Origin: Verrucomicrobiota bacterium
GTDB lineage: Bacteria > Verrucomicrobiota > Verrucomicrobiia > Palsa-1439
Assembly: GCA_003152315.1 (NCBI GenBank)
Contig: PLZV01000062.1
Location: 84,688-148,687, forward strand
Reading direction: 5' to 3'
DNA length: 64,000 nt
The notes beneath the pieces were generated by a model. It was not told the DNA's origin, ran no database searches, and was given only the letters and a program-made list of their open reading frames with translations. The position numbers were made by a program, and so were the translations under genes. This document shows positions 53,281 through 64,000 of the stretch, piece after piece; positions within the stretch are counted from its first letter, which is position 1, and each line of letters begins with the position of its first letter.

Positions 53281-54180
53281 TTACTTCCGCCGCCGAAGGA
53301 ACAATAACAAAGACAACCCGCTAAAACCCGCCAGTGCCAGCGTGGTCGGCTCGGGAATCACCGCGATGCCCCATGGTTGATGCAACCCTGAAACCAGCGA
53401 GGCGTTGACCGCCACACCGTTGGTCGTGTATTCGCCTATCGTGTTGACGGTCGCGGGCGAGCCGCCAATGCTCGAAACAAAGAGATCTCCTCCCAACACT
53501 GCGATCCCAACCGGTTCACCCAACCCGGAGACCAGCGAGGCGTTGACCGTCACACCGTTGGTCGTGTATTCGCCAATCGTAGCGCTGAAAGCGTTCGCGA
53601 CAAAAAGATTTCCTCCAGACACCACGAGGCCAAATGGTCCACTCAACCCTGAGACCAGCGAGGCATTGACCGTCACACCGTTGGTCGTATATTCGCCTAT
53701 CGTGCCGCCGTTAGCGTTCGCGACAAAGAGATCTCCTCCAGACACCACGAGGCCAGCTGGGTCCAACAATCCTGAGACCAGCGAGGCGTTGACCGTCACA
53801 CCGTTGGTCGTGTATTCGCCAATGATGCCGCTGCCCTCGTTCGCGACAAAGAGATTTCCTCCAGACACCGCCATCCCTACTGGTTCATTTAACCCTGAGA
53901 CCAGCGAGGTGCTGACTGTCCCACCCGAGGTGGTGTACTCGCCAATCGTGCCTGGAGTGGTAAAATTCGCGGAATAGATATCTCCTCCAAACACCGCGAT
54001 GTCGTGTATTCCGGGCACTGACACCAGCGAAGCGTTGACCGTCGTCCCATCGAAGTTGTATTCGCCAATCGCTCCGCCATTGATGGTAAAGATTTGTGCG
54101 TGAGCGGTTCCTGGCATAGCCCAAAGCGCGGCACAGATCGTCAGGCCAGTAACTACAAGTAGTCGAATATGTTTTTTCAT
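53281..54180 (-). CDS. PEP-CTERM protein with six beta-propeller-like repeats
   Basis: This 299-residue protein has a signal peptide ending in PGTAHA, six tandem repeats of about 41 residues and a C-terminal PEP-CTERM signal (IPEPTTLALAGFSGLSLLLF then LRRRK). Each repeat has GTIGEYTTNGVTVNASLVSG and then a LVVSGGxLFVANA half, as in NHL/SBP-type propeller blades. Six blades would close a ring. The unit is 123 bp and is highly alike at DNA level, so copy number may change easily. It is probably displayed on the surface with exopolysaccharide. Confidence 0.87.
   Translation of the reverse strand: MKKHIRLLVVTGLTICAALWAMPGTAHAQIFTINGGAIGEYNFDGTTVNASLVSVPGIHDIAVFGGDIYSANFTTPGTIGEYTTSGGTVSTSLVSGLNEPVGMAVSGGNLFVANEGSGIIGEYTTNGVTVNASLVSGLLDPAGLVVSGGDLFVANANGGTIGEYTTNGVTVNASLVSGLSGPFGLVVSGGNLFVANAFSATIGEYTTNGVTVNASLVSGLGEPVGIAVLGGDLFVSSIGGSPATVNTIGEYTTNGVAVNASLVSGLHQPWGIAVIPEPTTLALAGFSGLSLLLFLRRRK
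53402..54060. repeat. Tandem 123-bp coding repeats
   Basis: GACCGTCACACCGTTGGTCG recurs with a period of 123 bases (near 53545, 53668 and 53791), with more diverged copies at both ends. One unit near 53470 carries 15 extra bases. These are the propeller blades of the gene on the minus strand. Confidence 0.8.
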
Positions 54181-56478: not shown

Positions 56479-57933
56479 CTACCACGTATACCTCACCGTA
56501 TAAGTAATCACCTGCTCGCCGTCCTTGTCCACCTTCACAGGAAAGTGAATCGTATTGGAATCGTGCTTCGTCCACTTCTGGTTGGACTCGGTGATCTCCC
56601 AGTTGTTCCAACGGTAGAGCGTCTCCTTCACCAGCACTTCGACCGGCTCGGTCTTGTGGTTACGGACACGGATCTCAAAACTCTCGGTGATGACATGGCT
56701 GCTGGCATCCACATGGAAGTCCGTGCGCTTGCGTTCGCCCACGATGTCAAACGCGTCGCCGATGTGCAGCTTGACGGTCTCGTCCTTCGGCGTGTGGTCG
56801 ATCTCGTCCTCGCCGATGAACTCCAGCGAGCCGTCGGCTTCATCGCGCTTGTAGAGCCGCATCTTGCCTTTCGGCAACGCCATGCCCAGGTTGTTCTCCT
56901 TGGAATTCTTGACCTCGACAACCACATTGACCTTCTTGTTGGAAGAATCGCTGCCATAGTTGGCATCGTTGTTCAACCCGCCATAAAACCGATACTGCGG
57001 CGCGCCATCATAAAGAAAAAACTTCTTCACCGGCACATCCGCCGCCTTGAGCAACTCGATCTGCTTGGTCTGGTTCTGCGCCACCGTCGCCGGCCGCCCC
57101 AGCGTGTAGAGGTGATACTCAAAGAAGGCTTTCTCCTCGAAGCCGCTCTGCGCTGCGGCTCTGCGCGCCCCAAACGCCATCGGTGCGGTCATCTCTAGCG
57201 GCTGCACCCGCCGCACATCTCCCGCAATCAGCTTGAGCTTCGCATCCTTGTACGTCGCGCCCGACTGATTATTGATCGTGACCCAACCACCCAGATCGAG
57301 CTTCGTGTCGTTGGGATTCAAAGTGGCGTTGTAGTCCGCCTGCCAGTTGATGCCTGCCGTCTGGTAAGCTACTTCGATAAGTTGCTGGCCCACCTTCTCC
57401 GTCGCCAGCTTCCATACCAGCGTCGGCTTCGTGATCAATCCCTCCGGCAACGCGCCAAACTGGATGTCCTTCACATTGTCGCCGCGCTGCACCATCACAA
57501 TCTCCGGTTGTACAACCTCCGCTTTATCACCCTCCTGCCGAATCACCAACTGGTTCGCGTCAAAGCTGAGCAAACTGCCCGAATACCGCGAACCGTCCTT
57601 CGTCAGTACAGCAATCTGTTTGTCGATGTACTTCCCGAGCAGCTTGTCGGCGGAAACCAGGTCGTACTCATAATTCTGCTCCAGCACTGTCGCACCGGGA
57701 TCGGTGAGCGACTTGAATTGCACGCTGGTCCCGTCGATCTGCGACGCCACATCGGTAAACTGAATCGTGCCCGTCTTCTCTTTGACGTCCACAGTGCGCT
57801 TCTCGCGCACCACGCCAAAATTCTGGTTGTAGATGGTCAGCGCAATGCCTTCTTCCTGTTTTTCGGGGGCGGCAAGGGCGGCGGCGGTCAGTCCGAACGC
57901 CAGTGGAATCATCGTCAGGTTGCGTAGCTTCAT
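56479..57933 (-). CDS. DUF4139 secreted protein
   Basis: This 484-residue protein has a signal peptide (TMIPLAFGLTAAALAA). It fits the DUF4139 group (mucoidy inhibitor MuiA-like) by its C-terminal half: VVVEVKNSKENNLGMALPKG, MRLYKRDEADGSLEFIGED, then RKRTDFHVDASSHVITESFE and IRVRNHKTEPVEVLV. The N-terminal half has IYNQNFGVVREKRTVDV. The start at 57933 has GGAGGAA about 8 bases upstream. Its role is likely extracytoplasmic. The function of the family is not settled. Confidence 0.85.
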   Translation of the reverse strand: MKLRNLTMIPLAFGLTAAALAAPEKQEEGIALTIYNQNFGVVREKRTVDVKEKTGTIQFTDVASQIDGTSVQFKSLTDPGATVLEQNYEYDLVSADKLLGKYIDKQIAVLTKDGSRYSGSLLSFDANQLVIRQEGDKAEVVQPEIVMVQRGDNVKDIQFGALPEGLITKPTLVWKLATEKVGQQLIEVAYQTAGINWQADYNATLNPNDTKLDLGGWVTINNQSGATYKDAKLKLIAGDVRRVQPLEMTAPMAFGARRAAAQSGFEEKAFFEYHLYTLGRPATVAQNQTKQIELLKAADVPVKKFFLYDGAPQYRFYGGLNNDANYGSDSSNKKVNVVVEVKNSKENNLGMALPKGKMRLYKRDEADGSLEFIGEDEIDHTPKDETVKLHIGDAFDIVGERKRTDFHVDASSHVITESFEIRVRNHKTEPVEVLVKETLYRWNNWEITESNQKWTKHDSNTIHFPVKVDKDGEQVITYTVRYTW

Positions 57934-58045
57934 AACCGTTCCTCCGTGGATGTCCGACACCGCCTACTCTACAAGAGTTCCGCGTGGTGTGCGATATTTT
58001 CCTGGTCGGGCTTTCAAAATGAAGCGGACTCCCTATAATGCGCGC

Positions 58046-61000
58046 ATGGCCTCCTGGAAATACGACGTCATTATCGTGGGAGCGGGCCCCGCCGGCATCA
58101 CGGCGGCCATTGCCTTGGCCAGGGCGAACGTCCCCGTGCTCGTCATCGAGGCGGGCGTCTTCCCGGGCGCAGAGAACTGGTCAGGTGCCGTCTATTTCAC
58201 GGAAAACCTCGCGCAGCCGGATGTCCTCGGCGAACAAGCCGTCCGCGATTCCGCCTACGAACGTCCCGTCACCAAACGCGGCTTCTACATCTATAACGGC
58301 CACTCGCTCGTCGGCCTCAATTACCGCAACCCGGCCACGTTCGCCAACTGCTACACCGTCCTGCGCCCGACGTACGACCACTATCTGGCCGAACTCGCCA
58401 AGTCGTTCGGAGCGGAGATCCTCACGGAAACCACGGTGGACGGCCTGCTCCGCGACGATAACGGCCACATCGTCGGCGTCCACACCGACCGCGGCTCGAT
58501 CCATGCCGATGTCGTGTTCCTCGCCGAGGGCGACGCGTCGCAACTCGTCACAAAAGAAGGTTACGAGCGCAACATCGAAGCCGGCACGCCGCATTTCCTG
58601 CAAGGCATCAAGGAAGTCATCGAGGTCGATCCCGATTACATCGAGCACACCTTTAAGCTGTCGCAAGGCGAAGGCGCGGCCTTCGAAATCCTCTTGCGCA
58701 ACGGCTCGATCCACAATCGCACCGCCAACCTCAACATGGGCGGCTTCCTCTATACGAACAAGGCCAGCCTCTCGCTCGGCCTCGTCCTGCCGCTCGACAA
58801 TCTCAGCAAAGAGTTCGGCGGCGACCACAACCGCCTCATGGAATGGTTCAAGGGACTGCCCGAAGTCCGCCGTTGGACGAACCACAGTCGGTCGTCCGCT
58901 TACGGCGCAAAGATCATCCGCGGTGGCGGCTTCCGCGAATTGCCGCAACTCGTCGACAACGGCCTCGCCATCGGCGGCGCCGCCACCGGCATCGGCCTCG
59001 ATTTCCCCTACCCCAATTTTACCGGCCCCGCCACCGCGATGGGACGCCTCTTCGCCAACGCCGTCAAGCAGGCGCGCGCCGCCAACAAATCTTTCTCCCG
59101 GCCGGTCCTCGAAGAACTCTACGAACGCCCGCTGCGCGACACGCACTACTTCAAGAACGTCGAGTTTCTCGAAAAATGGCCGCATTACGTCGAGCACACC
59201 CGCGTCTTCTTCGGTCGCGCCGCCGACCTCGCGACCGGTTCGCTTTACATCGCGAGCAACACAACGTTGCGCCCCCGCCAAAGGCTCTGGCCGCTCGCCA
59301 AGTTTACTCGCGAGACTCTCCCATTGAAACATTGGGGCGAGTTCTTCCACGACCTGCGCGAACAACGCGCCGCCCTTGGTCTCACCCATACAAGCAAACC
59401 AGTCGCAGGAGCCTCGACGAATTCGTCCGGGCGACCAGGCGAAGGCGAAGCTCATCTGGAATTCCGCGTGGACGGCGAACCTTGCAACAATTTCCCCTGG
59501 CCCCTTTCCCTCATCTTCGCCAATGCCTCCGTGATGCTGTCAGCGGCTTCCGATCATCTTTACCGGAATGACGCCACGCCCTTGCCCGACAAACTTCGCA
59601 ACGCCATCGCCTCCGCAAAACGCAACACAAGTGTTGCCGCGTACCTGGGTCTGACGGGAATGTTCGTGCTCCTGCTGGTGCTGATGCCCATTCAGTGGAT
59701 CTGCGAATTGATCCACCTCGTCATCACGCGTCCGTCGCCGGAAAAATTCCTGTCCAGCTTCTTCCAAAAGAATCTGGCCCTCGTCCGCCAACGCCTCAAG
59801 CTCGATCCGGACGCCGTCAAAATCGAACAACCGTGGGAAGAGAAACTCTCGCTCATCCGCTACTTCTCCGAGGACCACACGCACATCAAAGTGTTCCGCC
59901 CCGAGAATTTCGAGAATCGCGCGAAGATCGCCGACTCTCCCCTCTGGCACGTCTGCCCCGCGAAAGTTTACGAGTGCCACACCGACGACCTCGGCCAGTC
60001 CCAACTCGTCGTGAACTTCGAGAACTGCATCAAGTGCGAGACCTGCTGGCGCTCCGCCACCAACGACGTCGATTGGACCCGCCAGCGCCACCAGCGATTG
60101 ATCTTCAACGCCTCAACCGAGGCCAACCGAAAACTCCTCGCCATTCTGAAGTCTGTCACCCTGAACGAACCGAAGGGGCTTGCCTCGCAGTCACCCCGGA
60201 TACTTCAATTCACCCAGTACGACATTCGCCAGAAGGCTCTCGCCCTCACCGCCAAGCTCCACCAATTCTGCGACACCGTTTATGCCGGCCCGCGTTATGT
60301 CGATGCCGGCCGCACGCGCTGGCTACAATCATTGTTAACTGAAGCGCAGTCCATTGCCGCCGCCATCAAAGACCCGTGCATCGACCGGCAACTCGTCCGC
60401 ATTCTCGCCCACGCCAAGCGCCGCAAGTTCTTCTGGGCCGAAGCCGACACGCGACAATTGTTGGAGCAACTTCCTCCGCTTCCCCCGCTGGCGACCGCGA
60501 CACCACAACAAGCGCGCGTCGCGATGGTTTCGCGTCTCGATAAACTCTTCCCGAAACAGGCCGTCAAGGACCTCGAACACAATAAGCCGCTGTCAAAGGA
60601 ACAGAAAAACTTCCTGCACGTCCTCTCCGACACTGTTTCGCCGCCGCGCCCCGTCATCTTGCGCGAACTGGCGCGCCGCGATCCGTCGCTGGCCGCGCTC
60701 GTTTCGGGAATTTATTCCGCGCAAGTTGCCGCGCGCCCGGAACTCGCCGACCAGCCATGGATCGGCCTCACCGCCGCGCGCAACGCCTGGAAGGAATTCG
60801 TGCCCGAGCAGACACCGACGTTGTCACAGGTTGCCGCCGACGTTTGCGCCATCGCCCTGGGCGCGGGCGAGATGTTGTTGGAACGCTGCCACCAACACGC
60901 AACCAATCGCGTCCAATTCCCCGGGCTGTTCAAGGACGAAGACGGCCGCGACGGCATCGCCAAGTTCGGATCCGTGAAGAAGCTGCTGAGCGAGATGGAA

Positions 61001-64000
61001 GCACAGGTGTATCTCTTGGAGGCCCTGCTTCCGTACGCCGACAAGGAGCCGGCCTTGGTGAAGATACTCGCTGCCACGGCTTTCGGCCCCGACTCCGGCA
61101 GTCTGGCCTACAACGCCGGCCAAATTTTCGGCGGCACCGCTTACAGCGAAGACGACGTCCTCTCGAAATTCTACCGTGACAGCGTGTGCTTCTCCCACAT
61201 GTTGATGGATGATACCGAACTGAAACGGCAACTCGGTCCAGACGCAGAAGTAAAACTCCGCCGTCTCGCCCTCGAAGCCGTCAAGCAACGCGCCGTTGAT
61301 CCGACAGAACTCGAAGCCGAGATCGTCAAATTCTTCGAGGCCCTACAGGGCGCGCCACAGCCCGCATCCGGACCTGCCGCCGAGACCATCGAACACGGTT
61401 ACATCGAAGCACCACTGCAACGACCACCGTCATTCAATTATCGCGAAGCATTGAATACGGATCAGGAATACGATTACGGGGATTTCCTCGTAAAACCCTT
61501 CGATCCGAATGGCTGGCGGTTCACGCCCGAAATGTTGCACGCGGACACCGAGCTTCAGGCCTATTACAATCAACAGTACCAATACTTCACCGAGAAGTTT
61601 TGGAATGCCCGCTTCGACGGCCTGCCGTACCACCGACTCGTCGAAAAACTGCACATGATTCCACTTGCCGATATCCACGACATGATCGCTCGCGGCTTCA
61701 TGCGCATGTACATCCCCACGGAATTCGGCGGCCAGGGTTTGCTCAAGGCGCACTACTACATCCTCTGCCCGCTCTCAATGCGATACGCCGACCCGTCGTA
61801 CGCGCTGACCATCATGGCCCACTCAAGTATCGGCACGACGCCAATACTGCTCGGCCTCAACCAGGATTTACCGCGCGCCAAGGAGGACCTGCAGCAGTTC
61901 CTCTCGGACCAATCCCAAATTGAAAACCTCAAATCCGAAATTGCTCGCATTCTCCGCATGCTCGAGTCGCCGGAAGCGCTCAAGGTGAAGAAGGTCTTCA
62001 CCGCCCTGGGCGAACAAGTGAAGACGAACATCGGCAAGAAACCGATGCTCCGCGCCATCGCCAGCGAGTTCCTCACTCACTTCATGGACGCCGGCCGCGC
62101 CGGCTTGCGCACCGACCTGGTGGTTTTCAAGAGCGAACTGCAACGGTCGCTTGCTATGCTGGATACTCTCCGCCCCCGCGCCGAAGCCGTCATCGCCGAA
62201 CTCGATCGCCGCGCCGAAGCTCACAAACTCTTCTTACGGCTCGTCTCGGCAGGCCAGATCAGCGCGTTCGCGTTGACCGAACCGAACGCCGGCAGCGACT
62301 CCGGCGGCGTCCAGACCCGCGCGGACTTGAAAAAGGTCGAAGTGCTCACCGACGCCGACGGCGTGAAGTATTTCCTGCTTGGGAAAGACCGCAAAAACAT
62401 CATCGATGCAGCCACGATCGATCTCACGAAGATCGATTACAGCGAGTACGACTACAAGACCGATGACCCCGCAAAATTCCGTTACTACCAGCATAACGGC
62501 AAGCGCATTCCCATCCACGACATCGCCCAAGTCCGCCGCGAAGGCGACAAGGAATTCTACGAGTACTACGAGGTCAACGGCGCCAAGATGTGGATCACCA
62601 ACGGCCATGTGGCCGGCATCTTCTGCCTCTATGCTCGCACGAAGGAAGGCCCAACAGGCTTCATGGTGGATCGCCACGCCGAAGGCCTGATCGTCGGCAA
62701 AGACGAGGAAAAGATGGGACAGCGCGGTTCGCCGACGAACGAACTCGGCCTCACCAGTGTTCGCGTCCCGCGCGAGAACGTCATCGGCATCGAAGGACGG
62801 GGACAGGTCAATGCGCTGGAGACATTGAACGTCGGCCGCCTGGGCCTCTGCGTCAGCGCCGTGTCGATGATGGCGAAAATCGTCGAGCAGACGCGCGCCT
62901 TCATCAAAGAACATGAGTTGGACAAGGAAGAGTGGGTGTCGCAGATCCTCGGCGGTATGGCCACCGAATTATACGCCACCGAATCGCTCGCCTACGAACT
63001 CATCGGTCGCGCCGACCACCACGGCACGAAATCCGTTCGCACCGAATCCGCCATCGGCAAGTATTACGCCAGCGAAGCCCTCCATCGTACCATTCGCGCC
63101 GCCGAGAAAATCATGGGCATCGAAGCTTGCACCCAGATGCACGAGTTGGAAAAGCACCGCCGCGACGCCCGCGTTCTCAACATCTACGAAGGTACCAACG
63201 AAGTGCAACGCTTCCTCATCCTCCGCGACCTCGTGGACCACGTGCTGCCGCAATGCGCGAAGTGGGAAGGAGAACCACCCGTCGACCCACTCGGGGCCGA
63301 GAAGTTCGCATTGGCGCGCGCTCTCAAGCGCGCGGTCGACACCTTCGGCGCACACGTTTGGCAGAACGCAAGTTTCCAACCTACGATGTTCAAATTGGTG
63401 GATGTTGCCGGTTACATCAAGACGATGGACTCAACGCTGTGGCGCACCCAATGGCTCAAGCAGAATTGCGCGGAAACCGACACCGCTCACCACGCTTTTG
63501 CCGAGCGCGCCTGCCAGGCCTATCTGGATCACGCCAAGAGTGAAATTGAGCGTCTCCACACCGGGTTCGACCGTGATTTCACCCTGCTGAAACAAGGTTT
63601 CTATCCGCCGGAAGTACGCACGGCCTTTCTCGCATTGGAGACTGCCGATGACCAATCGGAGCCATTACGACCAACGCCCGGGCACAAGGTCACCAGGGCA
63701 TTGCACGTGCTGGTCGTCCTGAATATTGTACCCGCCCTCTCGCCGCTTCCGCGTATCGTGAATGGCGAACTGCTGGAGACGCATTTCGATATCGATGGCG
63801 CGAGTCGCACGGCACTGGAACGCGCCCTCGAACTGAAGTCCGCTTCCGAAGAAGTTGCCGTCACGGCCATCGCGGTTGCGCCGGGCTATGCGATGGAAGT
63901 ATTGCACCGCGCCCTGGCGCTCGGCGCTGACGGCGCGGCGTTGATCAAGACCGACGACCTTCCCGATAATCCGCACGACACCGCCAGATTGATTGCCGAC
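58046..64000 (+). CDS. Giant fusion: ETF-quinone oxidoreductase, acyl-CoA dehydrogenase, ETF beta (continues past window)
   Basis: I read this frame codon by codon from ATG 58046 to the window end: 1985 codons, no stop. Residues 8-35 are an FAD Rossmann site (GAGPAG at 12-17) of an ETF-QO/FixC domain. A membrane segment lies near 533-560. An ETF-QO-type 4Fe-4S site has Cys637, 661, 664 and 667 (CPAKVYEC, NCIKCETC). Residues about 930-1050 resemble an acyl-CoA dehydrogenase C-terminal domain (NAGQIFGGTAYSED). Residues about 1145-1830 are a full acyl-CoA dehydrogenase (PTEFGGQG, ALTEPNAGSDSGG, GAKMWITNG, and NIYEGTNEVQR with the usual catalytic Glu at 1715). From about 1880 an ETF beta subunit begins (ALHVLVVLN, RALALGADGA). 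The expected role is electron flow from acyl-CoA through ETF to quinone. Family calls are firm; the single-chain operation is inference. Confidence 0.88.
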   Translation, partial: MASWKYDVIIVGAGPAGITAAIALARANVPVLVIEAGVFPGAENWSGAVYFTENLAQPDVLGEQAVRDSAYERPVTKRGFYIYNGHSLVGLNYRNPATFANCYTVLRPTYDHYLAELAKSFGAEILTETTVDGLLRDDNGHIVGVHTDRGSIHADVVFLAEGDASQLVTKEGYERNIEAGTPHFLQGIKEVIEVDPDYIEHTFKLSQGEGAAFEILLRNGSIHNRTANLNMGGFLYTNKASLSLGLVLPLDNLSKEFGGDHNRLMEWFKGLPEVRRWTNHSRSSAYGAKIIRGGGFRELPQLVDNGLAIGGAATGIGLDFPYPNFTGPATAMGRLFANAVKQARAANKSFSRPVLEELYERPLRDTHYFKNVEFLEKWPHYVEHTRVFFGRAADLATGSLYIASNTTLRPRQRLWPLAKFTRETLPLKHWGEFFHDLREQRAALGLTHTSKPVAGASTNSSGRPGEGEAHLEFRVDGEPCNNFPWPLSLIFANASVMLSAASDHLYRNDATPLPDKLRNAIASAKRNTSVAAYLGLTGMFVLLLVLMPIQWICELIHLVITRPSPEKFLSSFFQKNLALVRQRLKLDPDAVKIEQPWEEKLSLIRYFSEDHTHIKVFRPENFENRAKIADSPLWHVCPAKVYECHTDDLGQSQLVVNFENCIKCETCWRSATNDVDWTRQRHQRLIFNASTEANRKLLAILKSVTLNEPKGLASQSPRILQFTQYDIRQKALALTAKLHQFCDTVYAGPRYVDAGRTRWLQSLLTEAQSIAAAIKDPCIDRQLVRILAHAKRRKFFWAEADTRQLLEQLPPLPPLATATPQQARVAMVSRLDKLFPKQAVKDLEHNKPLSKEQKNFLHVLSDTVSPPRPVILRELARRDPSLAALVSGIYSAQVAARPELADQPWIGLTAARNAWKEFVPEQTPTLSQVAADVCAIALGAGEMLLERCHQHATNRVQFPGLFKDEDGRDGIAKFGSVKKLLSEMEAQVYLLEALLPYADKEPALVKILAATAFGPDSGSLAYNAGQIFGGTAYSEDDVLSKFYRDSVCFSHMLMDDTELKRQLGPDAEVKLRRLALEAVKQRAVDPTELEAEIVKFFEALQGAPQPASGPAAETIEHGYIEAPLQRPPSFNYREALNTDQEYDYGDFLVKPFDPNGWRFTPEMLHADTELQAYYNQQYQYFTEKFWNARFDGLPYHRLVEKLHMIPLADIHDMIARGFMRMYIPTEFGGQGLLKAHYYILCPLSMRYADPSYALTIMAHSSIGTTPILLGLNQDLPRAKEDLQQFLSDQSQIENLKSEIARILRMLESPEALKVKKVFTALGEQVKTNIGKKPMLRAIASEFLTHFMDAGRAGLRTDLVVFKSELQRSLAMLDTLRPRAEAVIAELDRRAEAHKLFLRLVSAGQISAFALTEPNAGSDSGGVQTRADLKKVEVLTDADGVKYFLLGKDRKNIIDAATIDLTKIDYSEYDYKTDDPAKFRYYQHNGKRIPIHDIAQVRREGDKEFYEYYEVNGAKMWITNGHVAGIFCLYARTKEGPTGFMVDRHAEGLIVGKDEEKMGQRGSPTNELGLTSVRVPRENVIGIEGRGQVNALETLNVGRLGLCVSAVSMMAKIVEQTRAFIKEHELDKEEWVSQILGGMATELYATESLAYELIGRADHHGTKSVRTESAIGKYYASEALHRTIRAAEKIMGIEACTQMHELEKHRRDARVLNIYEGTNEVQRFLILRDLVDHVLPQCAKWEGEPPVDPLGAEKFALARALKRAVDTFGAHVWQNASFQPTMFKLVDVAGYIKTMDSTLWRTQWLKQNCAETDTAHHAFAERACQAYLDHAKSEIERLHTGFDRDFTLLKQGFYPPEVRTAFLALETADDQSEPLRPTPGHKVTRALHVLVVLNIVPALSPLPRIVNGELLETHFDIDGASRTALERALELKSASEEVAVTAIAVAPGYAMEVLHRALALGADGAALIKTDDLPDNPHDTARLIAD
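60152..60199 (+). repeat. Dispersed repeat translated inside the giant gene
   Basis: GTCACCCTGAACGAACCGAA and the next bases resemble the repeat at 27795-27825. In the giant frame it encodes SVTLNEPKGLASQSPR, between the 4Fe-4S domain and the following helical part. It keeps the frame. Confidence 0.5.
61911..61942 (+). repeat. AT-rich repeat-like segment translated inside the giant gene
   Basis: AATCCCAAATTGAAAACCTC and the following AAATCCGAAATT stand out in the GC-rich gene and resemble, in reverse, the CGGATTTC-type repeat at 50090-50125. They encode QSQIENLKSEI within a helical insertion of the acyl-CoA dehydrogenase domain. Confidence 0.45.

Follow-up and report, generated by a model that had tools for sequence, protein, structure and literature searches.

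An ETF-QO, an acyl-CoA dehydrogenase (ACAD) and an ETF are encoded in a single reading frame of a Verrucomicrobiota bacterium. The domain order can be read directly from the sequence: the N-terminal part runs from a FixC/ETF-QO flavin domain through a hydrophobic membrane segment to an ETF-QO-type 4Fe-4S domain, and the C-terminal part carries an ACAD copy predicted to be inactive, an active ACAD, ETF-beta, and ETF-alpha. We propose, with a probability of about three in four, that the product is one polypeptide, attached to the membrane, that works as an acyl-CoA:quinone oxidoreductase, with its ETF shuttle tethered and without bifurcation; the activity itself is inferred.

Extent, domains, and conservation of the fused gene

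The window, the whole stretch of 64,000 nucleotides analyzed here, corresponds to PLZV01000062.1, 84,688–148,687 (G000:C48:84688-148687). A frame scan of the window revealed an open frame from position 57833 that reaches the window end and, in the parent contig, continues to a stop at window-equivalent position 65494, 1,494 bases beyond the window; counted from the first possible start, its length is 2,553 codons. Two candidate starts are available, Met 58019 (MKRTPYNAR), giving 2,491 aa, and Met 58046 (MASWKYD), giving 2,482 aa. Residues are numbered on the 2,491-aa protein, in which the first base of residue r lies at window position 58019+3(r-1). An earlier reading of the sequence alone had proposed one frame of at least 1985 codons over 58046–64000, to be given up if a stop soon after 64000 left only a fragment of ETF-beta. 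The frame is open as proposed and beyond, no such stop was found, and ETF-alpha follows ETF-beta in frame. The features are as follows, all on the plus strand:

58019–64000, then past the window to the stop at window-equivalent 65494: fused gene, 2,491 aa (frame and orthologues)
58046–59218: FixC/ETF-QO flavin (quinone-reductase FAD) domain, residues 10–400 (phmmer, NCBIfam)
59630–59788: hydrophobic membrane segment, residues about 538–590 (hydropathy)
59849–60118: ETF-QO-type single 4Fe-4S domain, residues 611–700 (PF05187, 33.3 bits, cut-off 24)
60236–61348: ACAD copy predicted to be catalytically dead, residues about 740–1110 (PF00441, profiles)
60908–60919: RVQF in the dead copy; its Arg occupies the site of SCAD R297, a contact to the FAD of the partner (alignment)
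61121–61135: QIFGG in the dead copy, corresponding to SCAD Q365 and G369, which contact the FAD of the partner (alignment)
61514–63628: active ACAD with a VLCAD/ACAD9-type C-terminal extension, residues 1166–1870 (PF02771, PF02770, PF00441)
61889–62218: helical insert of ~110 residues between the ACAD N and M domains, residues 1291–1400 (alignment)
62591–62602: WITN flavin-binding motif of the live ACAD, invariant in 5/5 full-length homologues
63185–63202: YEGTNE, containing catalytic Glu1724, unchanged in all live copies that extend this far
63650–64000 in the window: start of ETF-beta; domain residues 1878–2106, to window-equivalent 64336 (PF01012, two stretches)
Window-equivalent 64337–65491, parent contig: ETF-alpha (PF00766, 56 bits)

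Run over the whole translation, Pfam found ETF-QO, ACAD, and ETF domains in one chain, with FAD oxidoreductase, Fer4_ETF_QO (33 bits, cut-off 24), the ACAD N, M, and C domains (98 bits for the C domain), ETF twice, and ETF_alpha (56 bits) all above their cut-offs. The earlier division into ETF-QO, ACAD, and ETF thus holds; what it had overlooked is a second ACAD at 60236–61348, the affinity of the flavin domain to FixC, and the loss of a loop in ETF-beta.

A phmmer search with residues 1–400 returned FixC (EtfC) of Thermotoga EtfABCX as the nearest solved structure (7koe_C, E 3e-42) and ETF-QO 2gmh as the next, which satisfies the requirement that the FAD-binding Rossmann domain be homologous to FixC/ETF-QO and supports the ETF-QO with a FAD site read earlier, FixC being nearest. 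The NCBIfam FixC subfamily models reached about 158–160 bits on this domain, below their own cut-offs. The presumed membrane segment was recovered as the hydropathy peak of all six homologues, being the most hydrophobic 19-mer at the same place in each (Kyte-Doolittle mean 1.9–2.7). The 4Fe-4S ligands Cys646, 670, 673, and 676 are the residues named earlier as 637, 661, 664, and 667, numbered from 58046. They are invariant in the 6/6 homologues covering them, with PF05187 above its cut-off, and they form one cluster motif only; this iron-sulphur part resembles both 7koe_D (EtfX) and 2gmh. Pfam gave no match to the quinone-binding subdomain PF21162 in the window protein, and the E-values of 6e-4 and 4e-3 for the homologues G270 and G420 are below the cut-off.

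The same domain order, for which a search of other PVC genomes had been suggested, occurs in intact orthologous frames of other genomes, including some from another class. The full-length frame recurs in two congeners, G002 (88% identity) and G001 (78% identity; PLTX01000034, Verrucomicrobia bog_1451). Full-length frames in G001, G002, G270, and G420 span 2,504–2,605 codons; the last two, from another class, have 2,605 and 2,582 codons and are colinear throughout at 34% identity, as found by a middle-segment profile search. A third family is represented by G487, with a 1,780-codon frame open to the end of its own 5.5 kb contig. In G006, another genus of the same family, two short contigs each end in part of the gene, one in the ETF-QO half and the other in the ACAD-ETF half; this position, together with the same divergent DUF4139 neighbor, makes a fusion there likely, although not shown. 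All homologue sources are fragmented and are probably metagenome-assembled genomes. The distribution is patchy: 4/384 genomes of the window's class and, counting strong matches within long frames, 2/198 of the class of G270. A peptide-seed scan of genome contigs yielded nothing beyond the congener bog_1451 and a short match to the FAD motif in Syntrophomonas.

Among congeners, dN/dS is 0.02–0.3 in nearly all segments and 0.16–0.39 in the fast linker 431–560, and in windows centered on each joint pN stays lower than pS. Linkers 431–560 and 701–740 evolve fast and vary in length between species; the joints between dead and live ACAD and between ETF-beta and ETF-alpha are about as constrained as the domains. 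The proposal of ETF-QO, ACAD, and ETF on one chain is therefore supported, since the arrangement is conserved and under selection. Chance, assembly error, and frameshift were considered as the source of the frame and are excluded because the orthologous frames are intact in other genomes and dN/dS is well below 1.

An in-frame stretch of linker at 60140–60224 (residues about 708–735) is present only in the window genome among the three congeners. It resembles an interspersed element; a second copy was not found within the window.

Complementary decay of the two ACAD copies

The best solved relatives of the live ACAD include ACAD9 8phf and VLCAD 3b96/2uxw (E 1e-37 to 1e-39), and the match to 3owa continues into its C-terminal extension. 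Such an extension is typical of the longer VLCAD/ACAD9 group. The live copy meets the expectation for an ACAD of N, M, and C domains with the catalytic Glu in YEGT; the dehydrogenase with YEGTNEVQR named earlier is confirmed by PF02771, PF02770, and PF00441 and by the invariant YEGTNE. The helical insert between the N and M domains occurs in the window genus and in G270 and G420 of another class, and is nearly absent in G487.

Upstream in the same frame, PF00441 gives a second, separate match of 21.5 bits, or 24.7 with neighbors, against a cut-off of 22.4. A profile of this copy matches butyryl-CoA dehydrogenase 1buc weakly (E 0.009) and also ordinary-length ACAD frames in 49 other genomes (E 4e-6 to 1e-4), which in the examples read sit directly downstream of etfB-etfA. 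In reverse, a model of four ordinary ACADs matched both copies of the fusions at model positions about 410–450 in 5/5 proteins, each match being weak, while profile-profile comparison of the dead with the live segments (five sequences each) gave no informative match. The middle beta domain of this copy is deleted in the window genus, and an M-like stretch is retained in G270, G420, and G487. Judged by these matches and by its motifs, the region of residues about 740–1110 is a degenerate second ACAD, predicted to be catalytically dead.

Ordinary ACADs place their FAD at the dimer interface. In human SCAD, the adjacent monomer contributes Arg297, Gln365, and Gly369 to FAD binding, with Glu392 acting as the base (PMC13027082). 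We aligned these motifs in six dead and seven live copies, with 1buc and ACAD9 sequences as reference rows. The Gln and the two Gly of QxxGG are invariant in 6/6 dead copies and lost in 7/7 live copies, where K, R, S, or G replaces the Gln and I, V, or S the Gly. The RxQF loop is retained in the dead copies, with Cys for Arg in G487, and has been deleted from every live copy. Conversely, the catalytic Glu of YEGTNE is kept in all live copies reaching it and absent from every dead copy. None of the seven live copies thus meets the requirement for a homodimer, that one domain set carry RxQF and QxxGG together with the catalytic Glu.

In the α2β2 steroid ACADs, the α chain provides the Glu and the site of the flavin ring, and the β chain contacts the ADP-ribose part (PMC11153573; PMC8399759). 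The motif distribution in the fusion exactly fits such a pair of one catalytic and one non-catalytic ACAD with a common FAD site, as in the ChsE type; the pairing itself is not shown. Because the dead and live copies have decayed complementarily, an intramolecular pseudo-heterodimer is implied, in which the dead ACAD seems to complete the FAD site of the live copy within one chain. Selection would leave such a pattern if this were the task that the dead copy still had to perform. How the two copies fold and pair is inferred and lacks structural support, since AlphaFold2 had only two usable sequences; for residues 701–1870, the two-sequence alignment gave a mean pLDDT of 37 and no usable fold.

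The ETF module, the proposed electron path, and competing explanations

The start of ETF-beta seen earlier at the window end is substantiated by the two PF01012 stretches and a weak match to 1efp_B. C-terminal profiles match the ETF-alpha structures 5ol2, 6fah, 4kpu, and 1efv, slightly better for bifurcating ETFs than for human ETF. The ETF-alpha FAD domain expected of an ETF is thus present (PF00766), and its domain II is the best-conserved part of the module, with RK.VE, GQ(T/S)G, SGAPQH, and N.D kept in all. These FAD-binding motifs persist at high identity even where ETF-beta is no longer recognizable: in the window genus, the ETF-beta fold can be followed by sequence, and Pfam did not detect PF01012 in G270 or G420. 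The RQAIDGDTAQVG loop of ETF-beta holds AMP or the bifurcating FAD. This loop is missing from the fusion, whose ETF-beta aligns against 6fah_B as 'cg......d.ailaavlagnl' across RQAIDGDTAQVG, and the nucleotide site expected of an ETF-beta is therefore not met. Having lost it, the module is not a normal ETF and likely contains a single mobile FAD, as far as its motifs indicate.

In the path that we propose, acyl-CoA would be oxidized at the FAD of the live ACAD, with Glu1724 as the base. The upstream dead ACAD would provide the ADP-ribose contacts (RxQF, QxxGG) for this FAD site, such that no second protein is required. Electrons would then pass to the FAD of ETF-alpha domain II, swinging on its tether, with ETF-beta as a scaffold without nucleotide, before moving via the one 4Fe-4S cluster to the FixC/ETF-QO FAD and finally to membrane quinone. 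In the high-potential branch of EtfABCX, electrons follow the order ET-FAD on mobile domain II, 4Fe-4S, FAD of EtfC, and menaquinone (PMC10765413). The fusion matches this order of cofactors, which we count in favor of the proposed path. The path, the class of substrate, and acyl-CoA-dependent quinone reduction without free ETF are all inferences. The genome holds thiolases and just one other recognizable ACAD, and this too we count for the reading as an acyl-CoA:quinone oxidoreductase.

Several other explanations were weighed. Affinity of the flavin domain to 7koe_C and of ETF-alpha, slightly, to bifurcating rather than human ETFs could point to an electron-bifurcating FixABCX/EtfABCX-type machine fused to an ACAD. 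However, such a machine is expected to have two 4Fe-4S motifs and a FAD site in EtfB. Bifurcating FixX has two 4Fe-4S cluster motifs (PMC6085437), whereas the fusion has only four conserved Cys, enough for one cluster, and its ETF-beta has lost the site for the bifurcating FAD; bifurcation is therefore unlikely, and we regard this explanation as very improbable. The same loss, with PF01012 undetected in G270 and G420, could instead mean that the whole ETF part is degenerate and transfers no electrons, the live ACAD donating directly to the 4Fe-4S/FixC part. We find this improbable, given that no part of the module is better conserved than the FAD domain of ETF-alpha, which keeps its motifs in every homologue.

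The chain could also be a polyprotein, one translation product cut into the usual subunits with ordinary ETF-QO, ACAD, and ETF functions, and the fast-evolving linkers 431–560 and 701–740, variable in length, would suit such a product. Nevertheless, the dead/live ACAD and ETF-beta/alpha joints are about as constrained as domains, order and joints are retained across classes at 34% identity, and the complementary decay fits a permanent 1:1 pairing of the ACAD copies, though cut pieces could stay paired. We consider a polyprotein unlikely; that the chain remains uncut is nonetheless inferred, and proteolytic cutting after translation cannot be excluded. As to read-through or an assembly artefact joining neighboring genes, the fragmentation of all available assemblies might invite the idea, but with the same intact fusion present in other genomes, including another class, and under purifying selection, we give it almost no credence.

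Relation to known systems and genomic surroundings

Every domain of the fusion comes from a known family. The FAD domain, the 4Fe-4S domain with ETF-QO Cys spacing, and the expected path to quinone are alike in ETF-QO (2GMH) and in FixC/EtfC with FixX/EtfX (7KOE), but the fusion joins the FAD and 4Fe-4S domains via a membrane segment and continues into ACAD and ETF; it also has one cluster motif where FixX has two. The live copy resembles VLCAD and ACAD9 in its N, M, and C domains, the YEGTNE Glu, and the C-terminal extension, and differs in the large insert between the N and M domains and in lacking the homodimer contacts to the partner's FAD, which the dead copy carries. With canonical ETF (1EFV, 1EFP) and EtfAB of EtfABCX, the fusion shares the ETF-alpha FAD domain II and its motifs, whereas its ETF-beta has lost the AMP/FAD loop and its alpha and beta parts are joined to each other and to their partners. 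The pairs ChsE4-ChsE5, ChsE1-ChsE2, and IpdE1-IpdE2 have one Glu and one FAD per pair, with an inactive partner that binds the ADP part of FAD; these are two separate, steroid-specialized chains, while both copies of the fusion lie in one frame with ETF and ETF-QO. EtfABCX of Thermotoga maritima is membrane-associated and has the same order of ET-FAD, 4Fe-4S, FAD, and quinone, but consists of four separate subunits, bifurcates from NADH, and has no ACAD (PMC10765413).

We found no paper describing the fusion architecture in the open-access full-text literature, and within that literature the impression that no protein of this order had been described is upheld; as far as searched, an assembly of this kind on one chain, with a cis pseudo-heterodimeric ACAD, is undescribed. 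To our knowledge, dehydrogenase, ETF, and ETF-QO are separate proteins in every described case. In textbook beta-oxidation, ETF diffuses freely and is common to many dehydrogenases. Here, one dehydrogenase would be hard-wired to its carrier and quinone reductase, fixing stoichiometry and geometry, and one purified chain would allow direct tests of substrate channeling and of how the ETF flavin domain swings. The paired ACADs would illustrate how complementary decay can turn a homodimer into a cis heterodimer; the examples described to date involve separate subunits in steroid degraders. The arrangement also suggests how a lineage with one other recognizable ACAD may couple fatty-acid oxidation to respiration. 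In its widest form, our proposal is that of a complete one-chain acyl-CoA:quinone oxidoreductase, its swinging ETF flavin domain tethered between a cis pseudo-heterodimeric ACAD and ETF-QO, which is old, common to at least two Verrucomicrobiota classes, and dispenses with a free carrier at the first step of beta-oxidation. We hold this wider form to be probable, and restriction to the phylum is not shown.

Downstream of the fusion lie a gene for a DUF7544 membrane protein (Pfam), a glycerophosphodiester phosphodiesterase-like gene, and a glycerol-3-phosphate dehydrogenase-like gene. Both glycerol-lipid-like genes, just past the window (L004:15564-18094), were identified from sequence without a profile. 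This neighborhood is consistent with lipid catabolism, without being proof of it. On the other side, a DUF4139 protein (56479–57960, minus strand) is a divergent neighbor of the fusion that is kept beside it in G001 and G002 and is also present on the ETF-QO contig of G006. Further upstream, positions 53281–54180 (minus strand) encode a protein of IGEYTTNGVTVNASLVSGL repeats with a PEP-CTERM-like C-terminus.

The same genome contains a separate, divergent, and unfused cluster of ETF-alpha, ETF-beta, an ETF-QO-like protein, and an ACAD (747 aa), the one other recognizable ACAD mentioned above (G000:C57; L005:9276-16280, minus strand). In its ETF-QO-like protein, PF21162 and Fer4 models of the ferredoxin type match, not Fer4_ETF_QO, and the FAD domain of the ETF-alpha in this cluster is below the Pfam cut-off. 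In G003, of the same family, separate etfB-etfA genes are followed by one for a 627-aa membrane protein (L054:3282-6895) that looks like an EMO-type ETF:menaquinone oxidoreductase; sister genera seem to use a different route from ETF to quinone. Elsewhere, the frame holding an ETF-alpha domain at G233:C37:2239-2481 has 646 codons, more than one ETF-alpha would need, and is possibly another fusion.
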